From the NCBI GenBank assembly GCA_026129305.1, contig JAHCII010000008.1, forward strand, positions 1-64,000: 64,000 nt of DNA. Reading direction: 5' to 3'. Of the stretch, positions 38,042-46,806 are shown in pieces (the stretch's first letter is position 1; each line of letters begins with the position of its first letter). Made by a program: the position numbers and the translations under genes. The notes beneath the pieces were generated by a model. That model was not told where the DNA came from, did not search any database, and saw only the letters and a list, made by a program, of their open reading frames with translations. Origin of the DNA: Anaerolineales bacterium (lineage in GTDB: Bacteria; Chloroflexota; Anaerolineae; Anaerolineales; UBA11579).

Positions 38042-38057
38042 CGGGGCTTTTCTTTTT
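38024..38057. terminator. Bidirectional terminator between convergent operons
   Basis: AAAAAGAAAAGCCCC pairs with GGGGCTTTTCTTTTT around a TGAC loop. It contains the stop codon region of the membrane operon (+) and abuts the stop of the VWA gene (-), so it ends both. Confidence 0.9.
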
Positions 38058-39177
38058 ATTTGAACTTGATGCGCACGTTGGCCGGCTTTTTCAAGCGGAC
38101 TTTGCCGCCGCCCCGACCAGAAGCGGGGGCCAGATTGCTGCGCAGGCTGCCCCACAGCATGGGCACAGCCACCAGTGCAACCAGGATGAGGATCACGGTG
38201 GCAAACTGCGCCCAGGAGGCAGGCTGGGCCACCTCTGGCACCAGGCCGCCGGGGTTGTATTGGGTGGCCGTGTCGCTGCCCGCCGCACTGGTCGAGGACG
38301 CCAGCGAAACGCTCAGGGCGCGGTTAACCCCGTCACGCAGAGTGGCCGGCGAAGTGTAGGTGATGGCGTATTCGCTCTGCAGCGCGGTGGCGTAGCTGCT
38401 GTATAGAGTGGTCAGGCTGTCTTCATCTTCGGCGTAGCCATACAGTCCGCCGGCCCTATTGGCCAGGTCCTGCAAGCGCGGCTGATTAATACCAGCCATG
38501 GCGCCGCTCTGTCCCGGTAGGCCGAGGCCGACTGCCGAGATGGAGAGCCCCATGGGACCAATGCGATTGACGACCGTGTCGGTATTGGCCGAGCTGGAGT
38601 TGTCCATGCCATCAGTCAGCACAATGATCGCTTTGCGGCCGCTCTCGGCTTCCAACTGCTCCACGGCTGCCATGAGCGCGTCATACATGGCGGTGTCATC
38701 GCCGGCAGTCAGGCTGTCAACCGCGGCGCGCAGGGCGTCCTGGTCGCTGGTGATCGGCTGCACGGTTTCGATCTGCGTGTTGAAGGCGATCAGGCCCACC
38801 TGGTCACCGGGGCGCATGCGGTCAATGAACTGGTGGGCGGCTGCCTTGGCGGCGTCCAGCTTGCCGGCCGTGTCCATGCTGCCGGAGACGTCCATGACCA
38901 GCATGGTGGTCAGTGCGCCCACATCACCTATGCCTTCAATACGGTCCAGCGGAATGGGTTGGCCATTTTCGGCAAGCTGGATGCGGTTAGGGTCCACTGG
39001 CAGCGGATTGCCGGCCGCGTCCGTGGCGGAGACGTAGACGGTGACGCGCGGGAACTGGCTGGTATCCACCTGGGTGACGCGGATGTTCTCCTCAGCCTGA
39101 GCCAGGGGCGTGAAGGCCGCAGTCCCGAAGAGGGCCAAGACAGCCAAAAGCGTGATGGAGAGGCGTAGTGTCTTCAT
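38056..39177 (-). CDS. Membrane-anchored von Willebrand factor A domain protein
   Basis: The 373-residue protein has a signal peptide (about residues 1-28), a beta-rich section to residue 85, a VWA domain with a complete MIDAS start Asp96-x-Ser98-x-Ser100 (MDVSGSMD), TAGDDTAMYDA and VLTDGMDNS, and a C-terminal membrane helix near residues 330-352 with a basic tail. VWA domains bind partners through a metal ion; here the domain would face outside. It is the last gene of the UBL operon, 3 nt after the FHA gene. Its role in a UBL pathway is unknown, and it could act in envelope assembly. Confidence 0.88.
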   Translation of the reverse strand: MKTLRLSITLLAVLALFGTAAFTPLAQAEENIRVTQVDTSQFPRVTVYVSATDAAGNPLPVDPNRIQLAENGQPIPLDRIEGIGDVGALTTMLVMDVSGSMDTAGKLDAAKAAAHQFIDRMRPGDQVGLIAFNTQIETVQPITSDQDALRAAVDSLTAGDDTAMYDALMAAVEQLEAESGRKAIIVLTDGMDNSSSANTDTVVNRIGPMGLSISAVGLGLPGQSGAMAGINQPRLQDLANRAGGLYGYAEDEDSLTTLYSSYATALQSEYAITYTSPATLRDGVNRALSVSLASSTSAAGSDTATQYNPGGLVPEVAQPASWAQFATVILILVALVAVPMLWGSLRSNLAPASGRGGGKVRLKKPANVRIKFK

Positions 39178-39180
39178 GGG

Positions 39181-40038
39181 TTACCTCTTTTCGTGATAGA
39201 CCATTTGGGTATTGCCAATCCGAATGGCCTGTTCGTCTTTTAGATTGGCAACTTCGATCCGGCGGTTGTTGATAAAAGTGCCCTGACTGCTCATATCCTT
39301 GAGCGTCATGTGTGTGTCTGCCCCTTTGAGCAGAGCATGTTGCGGGGCAATATCTGGATCAGGCAGGACGATGTCTGCCTTGAGCGCATCTGAGCCGATA
39401 TAGGCCGAAGGCCCATTGGCGTGGATGAACTTGTCCAGCACGAATTCCGTGCCCTTCATCTTGCCCGTGACCACTTCCAGCCAGGCTTTGGAGAGCAGCA
39501 GCACGATCAGGGCAATGAAGGCGCCCACTGCCGCGCCGAGCAGGCCCAAGCCAGCGGCCTTGCCCATCAACGGATCGGCAAAGCGCTGGCGGGCGAACTC
39601 CAGCAAAAAGCCGCCGACCGCTCCGCCCAGCAGGCCGCCCAGGACCGGCTTCCACAGCTGGGAACCGCTGCTGAAGCCCAAGCCGGCGCCGATGAAGGCG
39701 CCGAAGATGGCCCAACCCAGCGCACGGGTCCAGGCTTCGCCGCCCAGGCTTTGGAAGGCATATTCGGCCAGCGGCAGCCCGACGGCGCCGCCCAACGCGC
39801 CAAGCAGCCCGCTGATCAGGCCGGCTCGCAGGCCGTAGAGCGGGCTGCGGGCGGCCAGGCCCTCACTGAGGCCGATCAGGGCGCCGATGCACAGGCCAAT
39901 CAGCGCCCCAACGATCACTTCGCTGAGATACAGGTTCTGCACGAACGAGAGTCCGAGCAGATTGCTGGCCTGCCAGCCGATCAGGCCGCCTATGGCGCCC
40001 AAAAGGCTGTAGTAATACAGTCGGGTGTAGCGGTTCAT
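39181..40038 (-). CDS. Membrane protein with a C-terminal FHA domain
   Basis: The 285-residue protein has a Gly/Ala-rich membrane part of about six segments (residues 8-185) and a cytoplasmic FHA domain at about 205-283 with YIGSDALKADIVLPDPDIAP, QHALLKG and DMSSQGTFINNRRI. FHA domains bind phosphothreonine; the usual Arg of the GR motif is Ser here and the SRxH motif reads APQH, so phosphopeptide binding may be altered. It overlaps the JAMM gene by 4 nt. Expected role is recruiting a phosphorylated partner to the membrane. Confidence 0.85.
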   Translation of the reverse strand: MNRYTRLYYYSLLGAIGGLIGWQASNLLGLSFVQNLYLSEVIVGALIGLCIGALIGLSEGLAARSPLYGLRAGLISGLLGALGGAVGLPLAEYAFQSLGGEAWTRALGWAIFGAFIGAGLGFSSGSQLWKPVLGGLLGGAVGGFLLEFARQRFADPLMGKAAGLGLLGAAVGAFIALIVLLLSKAWLEVVTGKMKGTEFVLDKFIHANGPSAYIGSDALKADIVLPDPDIAPQHALLKGADTHMTLKDMSSQGTFINNRRIEVANLKDEQAIRIGNTQMVYHEKR

Positions 40039-40703
40039 TCTTCTGCCTCCTGAGCGGCCTTGGTTTGGCCTGTGTCTGAAGCCGGTGGCTGGTGTAGATT
40101 CTTCCAGTCCACCACCGGGTGGGACTTGCGGTTAAAGAGCTCGTAAAAACCATAGCCTTGCTGGGCATTCAAGTTGCCCTGTTTGTCTCGAATAAAGAAG
40201 CCCGCCGTGTGGCTGTGTGGTTCGACCACCAGCGCCACCTGCCAGCCATGCGGGAAAAAGTGCCGATGCAGCCAAAGGTCGTAGCCGGAGAGGAAGACGC
40301 TCATGCGCGGATGGGTGTGGTACCAGCCCACAATATGCTTGTTAGCGTAGCGCTCCTCCAAGGCGGCCAGCATGGCCACCTGGCTGTCGTGTGTAAAAGT
40401 CAGGAAAGTGCTGCCCGAACGCACCTGCTGGGCAGGCAGAAGCGCCTCCACCACCAGGTAGAGCTGGCCTGTGTCCGGATCCTGACAGTGTCGCCCTGCC
40501 AGCCAACCGCCCACTTCGTTATCCAGGTCGGTATTGGCATGGCGGTGGATGGCCTGAAAGGCGGTTTGGGTCATGAAGACCTGAGTGTGCGGAGCAGCAT
40601 CAGGTTCACCCTCGGCCAGCCAGCGCTGAGCGCGTTCCAGCGGCAGGCGCGCCGGACGGGGCGCCTGAGCGGCTACCAGTGGGGAGATGTTGGTGTGGGT
40701 CAT
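40035..40703 (-). CDS. JAMM/MPN+ metallopeptidase, candidate deconjugating isopeptidase
   Basis: The 222-residue protein has the full JAMM zinc motif: Glu63 in DNEVGGWLAG, His129-Thr-His131-Pro in GWYHTHP, then Ser139 and Asp142 in LSGYD. JAMM enzymes (Rpn11, CSN5, bacterial JAB proteins) cleave isopeptide bonds to ubiquitin-like proteins or process their C-termini. A C-terminal tail of about 40 residues follows the domain. I chose the ATG at 40703; an upstream in-frame ATG at 40754 would place the start inside a 13-bp hairpin. Gene order directly links it to the UBL and UBL-E2 genes. Confidence 0.92.
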   Translation of the reverse strand: MTHTNISPLVAAQAPRPARLPLERAQRWLAEGEPDAAPHTQVFMTQTAFQAIHRHANTDLDNEVGGWLAGRHCQDPDTGQLYLVVEALLPAQQVRSGSTFLTFTHDSQVAMLAALEERYANKHIVGWYHTHPRMSVFLSGYDLWLHRHFFPHGWQVALVVEPHSHTAGFFIRDKQGNLNAQQGYGFYELFNRKSHPVVDWKNLHQPPASDTGQTKAAQEAEE

Positions 40704-40718
40704 AAGCAAAGCAGGCGT

Positions 40719-40749
40719 CTGGGCAGGGCTGTTTACCAGCCCTGCCCAG
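40719..40749 (-). promoter_or_regulatory. Intercistronic hairpin between the UBL and JAMM genes
   Basis: CTGGGCAGGGCTG (40719-40731) pairs perfectly with CAGCCCTGCCCAG (40737-40749), 5-nt loop, starting 9 nt after the UBL stop on the minus strand. There is no T-tract, so it fits mRNA stabilisation or partial attenuation better than full termination. Confidence 0.6.
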
Positions 40750-40758
40750 GCCAAGTCA

Positions 40759-41025
40759 TTACCCGGCGGTGACGTCGGCGGTCATGATCAGCCGGTCTTC
40801 GGCGGGGATGCCGGCGCCAGACAGGGTTTCCTGGTCTTTCAGCTCGCGGCCCAGGGCCTTGCTGTCCAGGCGGTAGCCCATCGGGCGGCCGTCCGGGCCG
40901 GTGGTGGGCAGTTCCAGCGAGGTGGCCAATTCCGGGATGAGGTCCTTGACCTCCACGTCATCGGGCACATCGGCGGAACGGCTGCCCCCCGAGGGCAGTA
41001 CTACGGTTACAGGGATCTCTGCCAT
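40759..41025 (-). CDS. Stand-alone ubiquitin-like protein
   Basis: The 88-residue protein reads as a beta-grasp ubiquitin-like domain of the YukD/EsaB-related type: strand PVTVVLPSGGSRSADVP, helix EVKDLIPELATSLEL, then YRLDSKALGRELKDQETLSG and AEDRLIMTADVTAG. It ends exactly at Ala87-Gly88, giving an exposed C-terminal glycine suitable for adenylation. The fused UBL of the upstream gene is nearly identical over residues 40-88, but continues past the same TAG. AAAGGAGTTAGAC precedes the ATG. It is the likely modifier of the system; the single rather than double terminal Gly is noted. Confidence 0.9.
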   Translation of the reverse strand: MAEIPVTVVLPSGGSRSADVPDDVEVKDLIPELATSLELPTTGPDGRPMGYRLDSKALGRELKDQETLSGAGIPAEDRLIMTADVTAG

Positions 41026-41082
41026 GTCTAACTCCTTTCAAGTTCTTCTTGGCAATCAACGGCAGCAAGCTGCCGGGAACCA

Positions 41083-41922
41083 CTATTTGAGGCGAATGCG
41101 CGGCTTGGTTTTGGGTTTGTCCTTGATGCGGATGCGCTCCGGGCGCAGCAACTCGCGCGCATCCACCGGGAAGGCGCGTGGGTTGCGGCGCCGGTATTCC
41201 CGGCTCCAGCGGGCGGCTTCCGGATCCCAGGGGAATGGCGGCTTGGTGGGATCGTCGTGGAAGTTCTTGTACTGCACCATCTCCCCAATCATCAGCACCA
41301 GGCGGTCCAGCGAGCGGCTGGCCGTCCACCAGGCAGCGTCCACACAGACCGTGCCGTTGAGGTGGTTAATGTTGGGATGCCAGACCGGGGTCAGCCACTT
41401 CATGCCGGGCCAACGCTGGGGGTATTGATTGTGCAGATAAATCTCCACCTGGTGGCGTTCGCCAAACTTGGGTGTTCCGGAGCGATCGACGCCCACGATG
41501 CCTTTGCAGGTGTAGGTGACGATGTACTTTTCCGGGGGCAGGCCGGGGCGCTCGGAATGCGCCTTGAAGTCGATAAAGTCGCTCTGGGCCGCCAGTTCCT
41601 GCATACGGGTGTGGTCGGCTTTCAGGCGGCGCAAGCGCGGGCTTTCGGTGCCGACCGCGCCGGCGGTGATGTCGGCGGTCAGGATCAGGCGATCGTCGGC
41701 AGGCACGCCGGCAGAAGCCAGGGTCTCGTCCTCCTTCAGTTCACGGCCCAGGGCCTTGCTGTCCAGACGGTAACCCATCGGGCGGCCGTCTGGCCCCACG
41801 GTGGGCAGCTCCAGCAGCGAAGCCAGCTCGGTGACCAGGTCACGGATGGGGATGTCGTCCGGCATTTCGGCCTTGCGTGCCCCACCACTGGGCATGATGA
41901 TCGTGATTTCGGTTTCAGCCAT
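41083..41922 (-). CDS. UBL-E2 fusion: ubiquitin-like domain joined to a UBC conjugating domain
   Basis: The 279-residue protein has a UBL at residues 1-87, a paralogue of the next gene (GPDGRPMGYRLDSKALGREL is identical), and a UBC/E2 domain at about 92-235. E2 hallmarks are YPQRWPGMKWLTPVWHPNIN, the HPN motif at 182-184, active-site Cys193 in NGTVCVDAAWW, and the following SLDRLVLMIGEMVQ helix. A basic tail rich in Arg and Lys covers 236-279. It would accept the UBL from the E1 on Cys193. The start at 41922 is preceded by TAGGAGATCTT. The fused UBL cannot be conjugated through its TAG unless cleaved there, so it may serve as a docking or regulatory domain. Confidence 0.93.
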   Translation of the reverse strand: MAETEITIIMPSGGARKAEMPDDIPIRDLVTELASLLELPTVGPDGRPMGYRLDSKALGRELKEDETLASAGVPADDRLILTADITAGAVGTESPRLRRLKADHTRMQELAAQSDFIDFKAHSERPGLPPEKYIVTYTCKGIVGVDRSGTPKFGERHQVEIYLHNQYPQRWPGMKWLTPVWHPNINHLNGTVCVDAAWWTASRSLDRLVLMIGEMVQYKNFHDDPTKPPFPWDPEAARWSREYRRRNPRAFPVDARELLRPERIRIKDKPKTKPRIRLK

Positions 41923-41935
41923 AAGATCTCCTAAA

Positions 41936-42820
41936 TTACTCTGCGTATTGATGCGGCACCTGGCAAACACCAGTGATCTCCCAGCAATCGCGGTGGTGCC
42001 AGGTTTTGCACACTTTGCAAATCTGCACGCCGCGCGGGTCTTTTTTGGTGACTTCTTCCAAACAGTACGGGCAGACATGGGTCTCCGCACTGGAGAAATG
42101 CACAGCGGTCCGGCGGCCGCGCCGGATGCGCTTAGGGGCCGCCGGGGCGGCGATGCGCTGGCGGGGTTGGCGCAAGCTGGTACCGCGGCGCACACGGCGG
42201 CCCGGCCACAGGCTGACCAAACTGGTCTTGACGCGCCCGCTCCAATTGGCGATGGAAGTGCGGATGGTGGGCCGGCGGGCTGGGCGCGCGGCGCGCACAC
42301 GCGGCCGGGGCGCAGGCGAGACACTGATGGGCGTCACCGGCGCCGCCAGCTCCAGCGAAGCCGCCGGGCGCGGCTCCACCAGGATCTCAGTGCGCCGCCG
42401 GGCAAAGGCGCCCAGCGCCAGCCAGGCCGCCAGGCTGCTGGTGAGCAGAGCCAGCCCGTTCTGCTCGAAAGTGATGTGAGCGAATTGGTGCAAGGGATCA
42501 ATGCCAATAAAGCCGCGGCTGGCCTCATTCATCAAGCCCAGCCCCAGGCAAATGGCCAGCCCAGCGGTGGAGAGGCGCAGGGCATAGCTGCGCCCCGCCA
42601 ACAGACGCCGAGCACTGAATCCCGCCACCAAGCCCACCGAGCCCAGCGCGGCATATTTCATGGCTGTCAGGGAAACCTGTAACTCCAACGAAAAGAGCAG
42701 CAGCAAAGCCAGGGCGGTGACGGTCGTGATGAGCGTTACCAGGACGACCTGTTCCAGCAGGTGACCGAAGGTGCTGGGGGAGGAATTCATGCGCGGCATT
42801 GGAATGACATTCGTGGCCAT
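41936..42820 (-). CDS. Membrane protein with a C-terminal RING-like zinc finger, candidate E3
   Basis: The 294-residue protein has membrane segments at about residues 22-48, 53-72, 82-97 and 120-140, then a long Arg/Pro-rich linker, and a C-terminal treble-clef finger: Cys250-x2-Cys253, Cys268-x2-Cys271-x4-His276-x2-Cys279, Cys286 and His290. The HHRDCW core with a following GxC resembles prokaryotic RING families described beside bacterial ubiquitin-type genes. As a membrane-anchored RING it would bring the E2 to envelope substrates. It starts one base after the E1 stop. The E3 role is inferred from fold and context; the finger could also only bind the E2 or substrate. Confidence 0.85.
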   Translation of the reverse strand: MATNVIPMPRMNSSPSTFGHLLEQVVLVTLITTVTALALLLLFSLELQVSLTAMKYAALGSVGLVAGFSARRLLAGRSYALRLSTAGLAICLGLGLMNEASRGFIGIDPLHQFAHITFEQNGLALLTSSLAAWLALGAFARRRTEILVEPRPAASLELAAPVTPISVSPAPRPRVRAARPARRPTIRTSIANWSGRVKTSLVSLWPGRRVRRGTSLRQPRQRIAAPAAPKRIRRGRRTAVHFSSAETHVCPYCLEEVTKKDPRGVQICKVCKTWHHRDCWEITGVCQVPHQYAE

Positions 42821-42821
42821 A

Positions 42822-44453
42822 TCAATCCATCAGATGGATGCGCGCCGCAGCCGTGTCCCCAGCTTCGTTGACCGGCTCGCCCAGGCGTACACGCGTTTCC
42901 GGCGAGGGTGTCGGCACCGCCTCGGCAAAATCATTGAAGTGCAGCGCCTTATGCAGGTCGCCGCTGAGTTCGTAGAAGCGAAAGTCAAGGCCGTTGGTGG
43001 CGCGCAGCACATGCAGCGGTGGGACGCCGACACTGGCCAGGCTGCGATCAAGGAAATCTTCATCACCGCGGATGGTGTGGGTCATGTTGACCTCACGCAT
43101 TTCGCCACAGGTGGGGCAATGCCCAGCCTCAAAGGACACGTCGGACATGGGCTTGAGCACTCGTTCAGAGGTATTGCAAGCCATGCAATTCAGCGAGAGC
43201 ACCAGCTCCTCATCCAACTCCAGCACAGCGTCCTGGCCCAGATCAGCAAAGACCACATCCAGCATCTCGCCCAGCGTGGTGCTCTCGGCGCGCAGCGGCG
43301 TCTCGGTGATCTCGCCGTAGATCCAATGGCTCTCGCAGTCTTCCTCGGCCAGATAGGCCGTGGTGTGCATGTGATTGGTGTAGCCGTTGAAGTGGGTGAC
43401 TTTGCCCGGCTCCACCGGCATGCTGTGGATCAGCTTGAGCGCCTCCTGCGACTGCATGGCGCCGATGATGGAAGCAATGGTGGGCGTGGTGGGCACTTTG
43501 CCCAGCAAAATGTTCTGGCGGGCCAGCAGCGGACAGGAGTAGCGCAGGGCCAGGTCGCGGCGGGCTTGCTCGGTGAGCGTGCATTCGAAGCAGGCGCCGT
43601 CGCCGGGGACAAACACGCGCACCAAGCCGAGCAATTCCTGAATGGCGCCATCCACCCAGGGCTTGTTCATCCAATAGGCAAAGCGATTGACCGCCAGGCG
43701 CGCCTCACGATTGTCAAGGCAGCCGATGATGACGTCCATGCGGCGGAAGACGCCCAGACCAATGTCATGCGTGATATCGCCGTGCAGGTATTGCACTTTT
43801 ACGTCGGGGTTGATCTCTTTGGCGCGGGCGGCAGCCAACTGGGCTTTCTCCCGCCCGGAATCTTTCTCGCGGAACAGGATCGAGCGGCTGAGGTTGGCCA
43901 GTTCGACATTGTCAAAATCGACCACGTAGATGTGGCCGATGCCCATCAGGGTCAGGTTCTTGATCACCTCGTTGCCCAAGGCGCCTGCCCCCACCACCAT
44001 CACCCTGGCGTCGCGCACTTTGTCGCGTTCCCACCAGGAGATGAAGTCGAAAGTTCCGAGACGGTCTTTCTTGAGGTTGGGGATGTGCAGCGGCTTCTCT
44101 TTGGCGACGGGCAGGCGCTGTGGCCCGGCCGGCGCGGCGGCAGGTTTGCGCCGCGCCGGTTTGTCCGCGGCGGGCGGCGCCAGGCGGGCGGCCAACTTGC
44201 GAGCTTTGGCCGCCTGCTGCGCGGATAAGGCGTCCACCAGCCAGCCAACCCCTTGGTGCGCTTCGATCAGCCCGGCCTCAGCCAGGATCTGCAACCCTTC
44301 GCGCAGCGAGGAGCGGCTGACGCCGAGGTCCTTGATGAGGTCACGCTCCGGCGGCAGGTAGGCGCCGGGCAGGTAGTCTTTTTCCAGCAGGGCGGCGGCC
44401 AGTTTGCCGGCCACCAGCTCGGGGATGCTGCTTCTGGGGATGGCGTTGCTCAT
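42822..44453 (-). CDS. E1-like (ThiF) activating enzyme with an N-terminal GntR/FadR DNA-binding domain
   Basis: The 543-residue protein has three parts. Residues 8-75 are a FadR-subfamily winged helix (LPPERDLIKDLGVSRSSLRE, then AHQGVGWLVD). Residues 135-365 are an E1/ThiF domain with nucleotide-binding VVGAGALG at 154-160, the acidic DFDNVELANLSRSILF with Arg190, a CxxC at Cys288/Cys291, candidate catalytic Cys307 in YSCPLLARQN, and PTTPTIASIIGAMQSQEALK at 321-340. Residues 415-455 hold a zinc ribbon (Cys423, 426, 446, 449). It should adenylate the UBL C-terminus and hand it to Cys193 of the E2. ATG 44453 has GGAGAGAG upstream. A FadR-type palindrome lies 29 nt before the ATG, suggesting autoregulation. 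Confidence 0.92.
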   Translation of the reverse strand: MSNAIPRSSIPELVAGKLAAALLEKDYLPGAYLPPERDLIKDLGVSRSSLREGLQILAEAGLIEAHQGVGWLVDALSAQQAAKARKLAARLAPPAADKPARRKPAAAPAGPQRLPVAKEKPLHIPNLKKDRLGTFDFISWWERDKVRDARVMVVGAGALGNEVIKNLTLMGIGHIYVVDFDNVELANLSRSILFREKDSGREKAQLAAARAKEINPDVKVQYLHGDITHDIGLGVFRRMDVIIGCLDNREARLAVNRFAYWMNKPWVDGAIQELLGLVRVFVPGDGACFECTLTEQARRDLALRYSCPLLARQNILLGKVPTTPTIASIIGAMQSQEALKLIHSMPVEPGKVTHFNGYTNHMHTTAYLAEEDCESHWIYGEITETPLRAESTTLGEMLDVVFADLGQDAVLELDEELVLSLNCMACNTSERVLKPMSDVSFEAGHCPTCGEMREVNMTHTIRGDEDFLDRSLASVGVPPLHVLRATNGLDFRFYELSGDLHKALHFNDFAEAVPTPSPETRVRLGEPVNEAGDTAAARIHLMD

Positions 44454-44481
44454 CAGCGGTCTCTCTCCAAAGGCAGTGGTC

Positions 44482-44498
44482 TGCTGGTCAGACCAGCA
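44482..44498 (-). promoter_or_regulatory. Predicted FadR/GntR-type operator of the UBL operon
   Basis: TGCTGGTCAGACCAGCA is a perfect 17-nt palindrome centred on 44490. The TGGTCnGACCA core is the classic operator pattern of FadR-subfamily GntR proteins. It lies in the leader of the gene that itself encodes a FadR-type winged helix. No second copy was noticed in the window. Confidence 0.75.
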
Positions 44499-44749: not shown

Positions 44750-45202
44750 TTAGACGTTGGCGGGGCGGATGCCGCGGTAGACCTGACGGCCGGAGAGTGT
44801 ACGCAGGATGGTTTGCGCCGGGCGGCCCAGGTCTGCAGCCAGCTGCTCCGCAGTCAGGGGCTGGTTGCCGTTTTTGAGAAAGGAGCGGAAGATCGACTCG
44901 ATCAGCGAGGAACCGCCCTGCTCATCGTTGGCGCCGTAGTGGGAGCTGAGCAGGTATTGCAGCGCGTCGATCTGGGTAACCTGGGCCGTTTGCGGGTCCA
45001 CCCGGTCAATCGTGTCGTCCAGGTTGATCCGGCCCACACTGGCCTGCTGCTCTTCACTGAGCAGGCCGTACAGAAAAACCTGCCACTCCTGGTCGTTCTG
45101 CCGCCACCAGGAGAAGTCGATATGAAAGGGCGTGTCCAGCGTAGGGCGAATAAGGCTGGAACGCAGGATTTCGTTCTCTTGAGGTTCGGAGTTCTCGCTC
45201 AT
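44750..45202 (-). CDS. Hypothetical protein, 150 aa, with a helix-turn-helix-like C-terminus
   Basis: I do not recognise this 150-residue acidic protein. The N-terminal half has FHIDFSWWRQNDQEWQVFLYG, and the C-terminus QPLTAEQLAADLGRPAQTIL reads like a small winged-helix segment ending in RGIRPANV. It overlaps the larger upstream gene by 4 nt, so the two form a unit. It points toward the UBL operon but is separated from it by a terminator and the tRNA, so joint transcription is unlikely. Confidence 0.7.
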   Translation of the reverse strand: MSENSEPQENEILRSSLIRPTLDTPFHIDFSWWRQNDQEWQVFLYGLLSEEQQASVGRINLDDTIDRVDPQTAQVTQIDALQYLLSSHYGANDEQGGSSLIESIFRSFLKNGNQPLTAEQLAADLGRPAQTILRTLSGRQVYRGIRPANV

Positions 45203-46806
45203 GCGTCTGCGATCTGCTCGGCCAGGCGGAAGTGTAAATGGCCGACGTGTTCAAATTGAGGGCGAGTGGCCAGCAGGGCCAGCAGTGGGGCCGGCGGGCA
45301 GCGCAAGACCAGGTTGAGGGCCGAATAAAGCTCCTCGGCATGCACATGGTTCTGTGGATTGAGCTTGGCCAGTTCCCGCAGGGTCGTACCCACGATCTGG
45401 GTGAAGTTGCCGACCGGCTTGCCAATGCGGCGTTCCCAGACCGCATCCAGCGGGCTGAGATCAGCCGGCAGGTGCATCATCATACGCTCATTAAAGGATG
45501 CAGCCACGGTCTGCTTTAGCATGGCATACACCACGCCGCCATCGGCGCCTACCAAAGCCGTGCGCACCCACTCTTTGCTGGAACGGTGGGCATCCACGGA
45601 GATAAGCACTTCACCCGGCTGCTGGCTGTGGCTGAGCTGCACGAAGGCGCCGGGCATCAGGCCGCGGTCCAAGTACCACTGGCGCAACCCAACGATGTAC
45701 CCGTGCTCGCGGTCCACCCAACCTTCGAAACGCGCCTCGCTGGAAGGGTCAACAAAGTCGAAGCGTACGCGGGGAGATTCGTAAGCGCTGGGGAAGAAGG
45801 CCGCCAGGCGCCGGGTCAGCGGCAGGCTGCCCACCCGCCAGTGCGGGTAGAGCAGGGCCACCTGGATGTGATCACCCTCCGCTTGGGGTTGAAATTCGGC
45901 GGGGGTCAGCTCATCATCAAACTGGGTTTCGAAGGCCAGCATATCTTCAGTCAATGCGGCGCGGTCGTGCTCCAGGGTTTCATAGCTGAGGTGGAGAGGA
46001 GTACGCTGCAGCGGCTCCGGCTCCAAACGTCGCAGGAACCAGGCGACCTCGCCCGAAGGTCCGACTTCGTCGAAGCGCGGGTCTTCTTGCAGAGCAAGGT
46101 CAAGAGAGAATTCGGCCAGCCGCGGATTGACACCGCTGGGCAGTTCGACCTCACCCAACAGCTGGGCGGTGAGCAGCGGACCGCCGGAAGCCATGTCCAT
46201 CAGCGCTTCGGCAACGTTAAGCTGGCCGGAATCGACATCCAGGATCAGGGCTTTGGGGAACCAGCGGCCGGCGATATAAACGAAGTCCGGGCTCAGGCGC
46301 AGCGCCTCTACCAATTGGGGCGCGATGCGGGCGGCATGATCACTGACCGCCGCGGCCAGCACATCTTCGGGGGTTTCTTCCACTTCAGGCGGATGGTTGA
46401 GGACGTGCTCCTCCAGCCCGGCGGCGTACTCGCGGCTGGCCCCATCGGCAAACTCCACCGTGATGACATCAAAGACGGCTTCGCCCAAGGTCCTGGCCGG
46501 GCGCACGGCGCTGACGCGGCCCGCCTGCCAGCCCAGGGCGGAGAAGCTGAGCTGGTCACCGACCTGATAACGCTGCTTGGGCAGGTAGGGCTTGGCCGCG
46601 GCCTGTTGGGCGGCCACATGCTCCTGCTGCTGTTGCATGCGATGGCGAATGAGTTGGGCGGCCAGCGCTTCTGGGCCGAGGGGGGTCTCTTCTTCCAGCA
46701 GGTATGCGGAGAGAAATTCGAGATCGGCTGACCGAATGCTGAATTGCTCCCAATCCATCTCAAGGGCGGGCTGCTGGGCAGACAAAGTAGAAGACTGGCT
46801 GCTCAT
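45199..46806 (-). CDS. Hypothetical protein, 535 aa
   Basis: The 535-residue protein is acidic and soluble, with no signal peptide. The N-terminus has a helical part (DLEFLSAYLLEEETPLGPEA), then a Tudor/KOW-like small barrel at about residues 75-140 (YLPKQRYQVGDQLSFSALGW; DVITVEFADGASREYAAGLE). The middle and C-terminus show no motif I know. Similar layouts may occur in other Chloroflexota, but I cannot check. It is followed by the 150-residue protein with a 4-nt overlap. Its proximity to the UBL operon makes it a possible partner or target. Confidence 0.7.
   Translation of the reverse strand: MSSQSSTLSAQQPALEMDWEQFSIRSADLEFLSAYLLEEETPLGPEALAAQLIRHRMQQQQEHVAAQQAAAKPYLPKQRYQVGDQLSFSALGWQAGRVSAVRPARTLGEAVFDVITVEFADGASREYAAGLEEHVLNHPPEVEETPEDVLAAAVSDHAARIAPQLVEALRLSPDFVYIAGRWFPKALILDVDSGQLNVAEALMDMASGGPLLTAQLLGEVELPSGVNPRLAEFSLDLALQEDPRFDEVGPSGEVAWFLRRLEPEPLQRTPLHLSYETLEHDRAALTEDMLAFETQFDDELTPAEFQPQAEGDHIQVALLYPHWRVGSLPLTRRLAAFFPSAYESPRVRFDFVDPSSEARFEGWVDREHGYIVGLRQWYLDRGLMPGAFVQLSHSQQPGEVLISVDAHRSSKEWVRTALVGADGGVVYAMLKQTVAASFNERMMMHLPADLSPLDAVWERRIGKPVGNFTQIVGTTLRELAKLNPQNHVHAEELYSALNLVLRCPPAPLLALLATRPQFEHVGHLHFRLAEQIADA

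Follow-up and report, generated by a model that had tools for sequence, protein, structure and literature searches.

Does one bacterial locus hold every component of a ubiquitin-like protein (UBL) conjugation cycle, and how would the supply of these components be controlled? The questions are raised by seven genes of an Anaerolineales bacterium (Chloroflexota; GenBank assembly GCA_026129305.1). The stretch that we analysed, called the window, comprises the first 64 kb of the 88.9 kb contig JAHCII010000008.1, and the genome (2.1 Mb) is 93% complete. With a probability of roughly 0.7, our analysis favors a self-contained, membrane-associated operon for UBL conjugation and deconjugation, in which the activating enzyme (E1) would also be the operon's own transcription factor.

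Components of the proposed cascade

An original prediction, made from the letters of the sequence, had placed seven closely packed genes between 38056 and 44453 on the minus strand, the strand of all features described here. Seven open reading frames (ORFs) indeed run from 44453 to 38056, encoding, in transcription order, E1, a RING-like membrane protein, a UBL-E2 fusion, a free UBL, a JAMM peptidase, an FHA membrane protein and a VWA protein. Pfam profiles, with each operon protein at or near its curated cut-off, matched the proposed identities of E1, E2, UBL, JAMM, FHA and VWA. The catalytic and zinc-binding residues that had been named (Cys307 of E1, HPN and Cys193 of E2, the JAMM motif, the RING ligands and the UBL end) are kept in essentially all intact homologues.

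The E1-like enzyme (543 amino acids, 42822..44453, refined start ATG 44453) combines a GntR-type winged helix-turn-helix (wHTH), a ThiF/E1 adenylation domain with Cys307, a C-terminus like a ubiquitin-fold domain (UFD), and a short tail motif, as judged by Pfam, alignment and PDB profile. Its ThiF score is 187 bits (3e-55). The alignment shows no variation in the nucleotide-binding residues, in C288/C291, in Cys307 or in the later CxxC pairs, and the best solved relatives in the PDB profile are eukaryotic UBA7/UBA1. An AlphaFold2 model of residues 362-536 had a predicted local distance difference test (pLDDT) score of 83.7. Its top 21 structural matches were all eukaryotic E1 UFDs (Uba2, UBA3, Arabidopsis E1) with Z of 5.2-7.0; from Z 4.6 downwards there followed a different UBA3 domain and, after it, ubiquitin-fold proteins of other kinds for the most part. 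The C-terminus, with the UFD-like region at 42933..43322 that carries CxxC...CxxC, is predicted from this model to fold as an E2-binding UFD, as in eukaryotic E1s. In the abstract of the 2011 Burroughs study, such prokaryotic E1s are reported to have a UFD, and the predicted fold agrees.

The UBL-E2 fusion (279 amino acids, 41083..41922, refined start ATG 41922) begins with a YukD-like UBL ending TADITAG (YukD, 1e-9), followed by a linker and an E2 domain (UQ_con, 42.6 bits, 6e-11). HPN182-184 and Cys193 are invariant in the alignment, and the E2 motif is found in 78/79 homologues. The free modifier (88 amino acids, 40759..41025; YukD, 5e-10) ends in DVTAG. A terminal TAG is found in 72 of the 75 loci; of the three exceptions, one UBL is truncated where its contig stops and two are longer by one or two residues (TAGA, TAGGR). 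In a divergent locus the UBL ends TAGRQL directly before an unfused E2. The JAMM/JAB metallopeptidase (222 amino acids, 40035..40703; Prok-JAB 4e-11, JAB 1e-8) carries E63, H129, H131 and D142, and the E...HxH...D zinc site was recovered in 73/75 homologues. Its start is most likely ATG 40703, TTG 40754 being possible, and its gene overlaps the FHA gene by 4 bp. The TAG variants, and the TAG conserved inside the UBL-E2 fusion, would fit with trimming by the JAMM protein. Trimming of pro-ubiquitin by a JAMM protein has been shown for Caldiarchaeum (PMC5654768), and a JAB protein has been proposed to free the UBL from related bacterial fusions (PMC7159879). Because the E2 is unfused on a contig of a genome from another class (L120), the fusion looks derived. 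A second JAMM gene was observed in one subgroup of loci (L106:11277-12413, L102, L107, L110 and L113), its product in L106 having an FHA-like domain at the N-terminus.

The remaining three proteins are membrane-associated, as had been proposed, a status that we assigned by hydropathy only. The RING-like protein (294 amino acids, 41936..42820) has a hydrophobic N-terminal half, two or more transmembrane (TM) segments and a C-terminal binuclear zinc finger, the finger proper extending from Cys250 to His290 (41951..42073; model pLDDT 86). The Prok-RING_1 score (cut-off 29.1) is 26.7 bits for the whole protein and 31.3 for its C-terminal fragment, and all 40 relatives scanned match this family. 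The ligand pattern occurs in 78/78 homologues, with CPxC, CxxC, HHxxCW and the final His invariant. The FHA protein (285 amino acids, 39181..40038; FHA, 5e-12) has several TM segments and a C-terminal FHA domain, in which the serine of the SxxH motif is mostly Ala/Asp across the family. The VWA protein (373 amino acids, 38056..39177; VWA_2, 6e-21) has a signal-like N-terminus, a metal ion-dependent adhesion site of the form DxSxS, and one C-terminal TM segment, with D96, S98, S100, T162 and D189 invariant. If the usual topology rules are valid, the VWA domain would lie outside the cell, and the RING and FHA domains and the tails inside.

Distribution and selection

Eight genomes taken from the phylum showed the same gene set. 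Scanning named genomes yielded 80 loci, some from the same genomes, labelled Chloroflexota and mostly Anaerolineales/Anaerolineae, including Pelolinea submarina, Leptolinea tardivitalis and Leptolinea sp. HRD-7. With the window included, all seven genes are present in 67 of the 81 loci, most of the remainder being cut by contig ends, and an automatic test found identical gene order in 64 of these 67. The loci are related and their counts are not counts of independent events, though several families and one other class are spanned. Of 251 genomes sampled from the order, a strong UBL-E2 match was obtained in 53 and a RING match in 51, all 51 being among the 53; in one of the two genomes with UBL-E2 and no RING, the UBL-E2 begins at base 1 of its contig. 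The co-occurrence expected by the original prediction was thus found in related genomes. In comparison with the nearest relative (the nearest named one in the scan being the Anaerolineales metagenome-assembled genome L046), the ratio of nonsynonymous to synonymous substitution rates ranges from ~0.06 (UBL) to 0.31 (RING), and every operon gene is, by this measure, under purifying selection.

The flanking genes vary among lineages, those that recur being for the most part housekeeping genes (NusG, ribosomal proteins L1, L10 and L11, LexA, CorA). This indicates that the seven genes are retained together and that their surroundings are no evident defence island. Conserved neighbors were considered as extra operon members and rejected, none being common to more than 19 of 74 loci. 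Two overlapping minus-strand genes of the window (44750-46806; 150 and 535 amino acids), without a Pfam match above cut-off, recur as a pair upstream of the operon in the closely related loci L046, L050, L051, L052 and L059, with other DNA between. The search for RNA elements upstream returned just one divergent tRNA-Arg, and the plasmid search a single distant E2 match.

Several related arrangements were observed. A divergent Anaerolineales locus (L125:3744-20851) encodes an E1 without GntR and an unfused UBL (ending TAGRQL) whose gene overlaps that of an unfused E2. It also encodes two larger JAB-type proteins, several proteins of the Prok-RING_1 family and a VWA protein that Prok-RING_1 matches at the C-terminus, and is probably a more elaborate cousin system. 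In a locus of the same class (L043:8048-12639, on G144:C34), E1 has no GntR, UBL and E2 are separate, and one of the two JAMM proteins has an apparent TM segment; this locus looks like a simpler relative. In several genomes of another Chloroflexota family, f29, and in one more genome (L045 and L016-L025), a YukD-like stretch weakly matching the UBL sits inside open frames of ~500-600 amino acids (one of 1500), a different context for the UBL fold.

A GntR domain, a predicted operator and common tails

The first 73 residues of E1 hold a GntR winged helix (55 bits against a cut-off of 27; PF00392, 5.6e-15), of the GntR/FadR type, at residues 14-73 (44235..44414). Its closest relative in the PDB is PdhR (5kvr, E=5e-15). 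This wHTH is intact and conserved, and a GntR domain is also present on the E1 of L104, L091, L120 and L112, and absent from that of L125 and L043. No FCD/FadR alpha-helical C-terminal effector domain was found on E1, the E1 domains standing in its place.

A search for dyads upstream of the E1 genes recovered TGGTC-N-GACCA in 36/49 loci and 0 in shuffles, far above other words. With better anchoring of the gene starts, the strict form is present in 50 of the 66 GntR-E1 loci, 49 of these sites lying 23-41 bases before the model start, and a form with at most two mismatches is present in 63/66. The sites carry 1.78 bits of information per position, compared with 0.075 in flanking DNA further upstream. 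A third half-site, ACCA, is exact in 54/63 sites, and a fourth, TGGT, symmetric about the same center, occurs in 25/63. The window has the predicted operator TGGTCTGACCA-GC-AGACCA at 44477..44495, 31 bp upstream of the E1 ATG, made of an 11-bp FadR/PdhR-type palindrome (44485-44495) and an adjacent half-site. The 11-mer TGGTCNGACCA has one copy in the 2.1 Mb of this genome, at 44485-44495. A blind search of 396 genomes of the class with the 19-base form of the operator returned 7 genomes, with 7/7 matches at a GntR-E1 promoter, and the operator was absent from L125 and L043, the two loci checked in which E1 lacks GntR. In 51/63 loci the operator is immediately preceded by a sigma-70-like promoter (3-11 in shuffles), the -10 box of which mostly starts 14-17 bases before the operator. 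Because the -10 box lies just upstream, the operator covers the likely transcription start. The published consensus operator of the FadR subfamily, TKGT/ACMA, separates GT from AC by 3 nt and is frequently accompanied by a neighboring half-site (PMC4494728); TGGTCnGACCA fits it in boxes, spacing and half-site.

The E1 would bind TGGTCTGACCA and is probably the repressor or transcription factor of its own operon, in the manner of BirA. The biotin protein ligase/repressor BirA has a winged helix fused to an adenylate-forming ligase, and represses its own pathway. With a DNA-binding head on E1 and a matching operator at the start of the operon, tagging and gene control are probably wired in one protein.

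Three otherwise unrelated proteins of the operon end alike. The pattern [RK][IVL][RKHTS][LIVF] occurs within the last 30 residues of E1 in 59/67 loci, of UBL-E2 in 74/77 and of VWA in 60/65, compared with about 10-20% of shuffled tails and 9% of flanking ORFs, and it is rare or absent in RING, UBL, JAMM and FHA. The strictly terminal form is found in 37/67 E1, 57/77 UBL-E2 and 44/65 VWA proteins. Among the other four proteins it has 1 occurrence in 296 sequences, and among flanking ORFs, which are mechanical ORFs and not all real genes, 0 in 589. In the window, the tails read ARIHLMD in E1 (42825..42848), KPRIRLK in E2 (41086..41109) and NVRIKFK in VWA (38059..38082). These like ends (R-I-K-L-K) suggest one common docking partner. 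One idea is that the basic beta-strand motif binds the UBL, which is acidic by residue count; another is that the partner is the FHA domain, which lacks the canonical phosphate-binding Arg. A V/I-x-L/F strand resembling the tail motif was also seen just before the RING CPxC in 72/78 homologues, by a loose pattern run without a background control.

Proposed mechanism, rival explanations and known systems

We propose that E1 uses the Ala-Gly end of the YukD-like UBL for adenylation and then charges Cys307, from which the UBL would be handed, through the UFD, to Cys193 of E2. Charged E2 would be kept on the cytoplasmic side by the membrane RING protein, which would make proteins in or near the membrane the likely targets. 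The JAMM protein would take the UBL off these targets, and may also trim UBL precursors or cut UBL-E2 after the conserved TAG. The roles of sensor and scaffold would fall to the VWA protein, with an extracytoplasmic domain and a cytoplasmic tail, and to the FHA membrane protein; by way of the R-I-K-L-K tails, both would belong to a single docking system with E1 and E2. An E1 dimer on TGGTCnGACCA at the transcription start would repress the operon, and the loading state of E1 (free, UBL-AMP or thioester) may set this repression, as in BirA, matching the supply of the machinery to UBL demand. The joint proposal that UBL loading of E1 sets its grip on the operator, so that tagging demand is read at the promoter, and that the tail of E1, E2 and VWA is a new UBL- or scaffold-binding motif gathering the cascade at the membrane, is more tentative, and we give it slightly less than an even chance. 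The genome itself, 93% complete, gave no match to proteasome/HslV (PF00227), which makes degradation by this route unlikely there; the idea that tagging ends at a proteasome or at HslV was rejected.

Several observations weigh against this scheme. The function of the RING-like protein is its weakest structural claim: the finger is C4-H-C-C-H without an evident linchpin Arg, and its model fits RING and PHD folds about equally, with Z up to 4.5, so that E3 activity is putative. The FHA domain is without the canonical pThr-binding residues, GR being changed to GS family-wide (G215-S216), which suggests a non-phosphopeptide role. The Bacillus subtilis homologue YukD was reported as not conjugated (PMC1779556). 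In regulation, 3/66 loci have no recognizable operator by an 8/10 criterion, the window's own -35/-10 match is poor, and the coupling of repression to E1 charging is proposed by analogy with BirA.

The alternative that the operon serves anti-phage defence of the Bil or CBASS-Cap2/3 type, placing its tag on phage proteins or on an immune enzyme, has in its favor that known bacterial E1/E2/JAB cassettes are largely defensive, that E1 and JAMM weakly match the E1-E2, BilD and JAB families of PADLOC, and that the distribution in the order is patchy. We consider it unlikely, since the operon has no BilA/B/C, CD-NTase or effector and the BilD match (5e-6) is a weak one among many E1 families; the recurrent neighbors are the housekeeping genes listed above; the operon is carried by 9/11 genomes of the same genus, and the two genomes that lack it are 76% and 68% complete; and an extracytoplasmic VWA domain with metabolite-type autoregulation suits homeostasis better. 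Filing the operon in the phage-defence family was rejected, its E1/JAB family matches being weak only. Membership in the FtsH-ternary/EAD1 conflict systems, or an accessory role in type VII secretion, is far less probable. In its favor, JAB, E1, RING and a Ubl-E2 fusion are found in those conflict systems as well (PMC7159879), and the Pfam family of both UBLs is YukD; however, no EAD1, FtsH, MoxR, caspase, WXG100 or FtsK/EssC was found by Pfam among the seven proteins (the wider neighborhood having been scanned in part), and in the genome WXG100 gave a single match, below threshold and on a different contig.

With a core of the ThiF/MoeB superfamily and no separate catalytic-cysteine domain, E1 would also suit a sulfur-carrier or cofactor system of the ThiS/MoaD kind that conjugates nothing to proteins. 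Against such a system stand an E2 with HPN and Cys193, a UFD, a JAMM protein, a RING-like protein and a second UBL fused to E2; sulfur-metabolism genes are absent from the operon, a separate strong ThiF-family protein is encoded elsewhere in the genome, and of all the alternatives we hold this the least probable. A different FadR-family regulator could instead bind the operator, the GntR domain of E1 being a relic or a scaffold, as GntR-family operators resemble each other and binding by E1 is predicted only. This is improbable, because the operator is missing at the two loci whose E1 lacks GntR, is unique in its own genome and, in its extended form, was matched blindly only at GntR-E1 genes, and the wHTH is intact and conserved.

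We retain the UBL operon with E1 as its probable transcription factor. The original prediction was borne out in part. The full set of E1, E2, RING, UBL and JAMM, the conserved active sites, the co-occurrence and the membrane-associated partners stood, and the active conjugation and envelope substrates that it proposed are putative; the set is not a first, tri-ligase UBL systems having been described (PMC7159879). It had missed the GntR domain and UFD of E1, the operator and the common C-terminal tails. The E1 repressor, with its GntR domain and operator, and the common tail motif seem new. The literature searched, a partial coverage without Burroughs 2011, had no mention of GntR-E1, its operator or the tails; a GntR survey (PMC4494728) does not mention ThiF, and a 2006 survey (PMC1779556) mentions neither GntR nor helix-turn-helix. 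Burroughs 2011 may contain this very operon.

The compact cascade is widely conserved (about 50 of the 251 sampled genomes of the order) and directly testable, since it is present in cultured Anaerolineaceae (P. submarina and L. tardivitalis). If true, the E1 repressor would be a new mode of control for a ubiquitin-type pathway, in which a DNA-binding assay reads E1 charging. The UFD and the RING-like protein are relevant to the assembly of the eukaryotic E1-E2-E3 chain, and the common tails offer a handle for finding substrates or readers.

Like BilABCD and CBASS Cap2/Cap3, the operon would perform bacterial conjugation of UBL type or at a C-terminus with E1, E2 and JAB chemistry. The proteins and architectures differ, however: Cap2 is an E1-E2 fusion, whereas E1 and E2 are separate genes here, and the seven proteins include no CD-NTase or Bil partner, with no defence context seen. 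The resemblance to BirA is functional, not homologous. BirA acts on biotin and the E1 would act on a UBL; the wHTH here is of GntR/FadR type and the predicted operator of FadR/PdhR type. Caldiarchaeum subterraneum likewise has a complete compact cascade of E1, E2, srfp RING, ubiquitin and Rpn11, with a pro-ubiquitin-trimming JAMM; its modifier is a canonical ubiquitin with Gly-Gly, in contrast to the YukD-type Ala-Gly here, and the portion of PMC5654768 available, which also notes complete bacterial operons, describes no wHTH, membrane RING, FHA or VWA parts in it. The kind of operon is already known by prediction, from 2011 and 2020, as bacterial tri-ligase UBL systems, complete with JAB, E1, RING E3 and Ubl-E2 fusion (Burroughs, Iyer & Aravind 2011, cited in PMC7159879). 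These share with the present locus the separate neighboring genes for E1, Ubl-E2, RING E3 (a RING-like protein here) and JAB, and a C-terminal UFD on E1, here a predicted fold. In contrast to the FtsH-ternary tri-ligase systems, which have EAD1 on the Ubl with vWA-MoxR/FtsH and caspase-like partners, the operon is without EAD1, FtsH/MoxR and caspase, and beyond the tri-ligase systems it adds a free UBL, a membrane FHA protein, a VWA protein, a GntR-E1 with its operator, and common tails.

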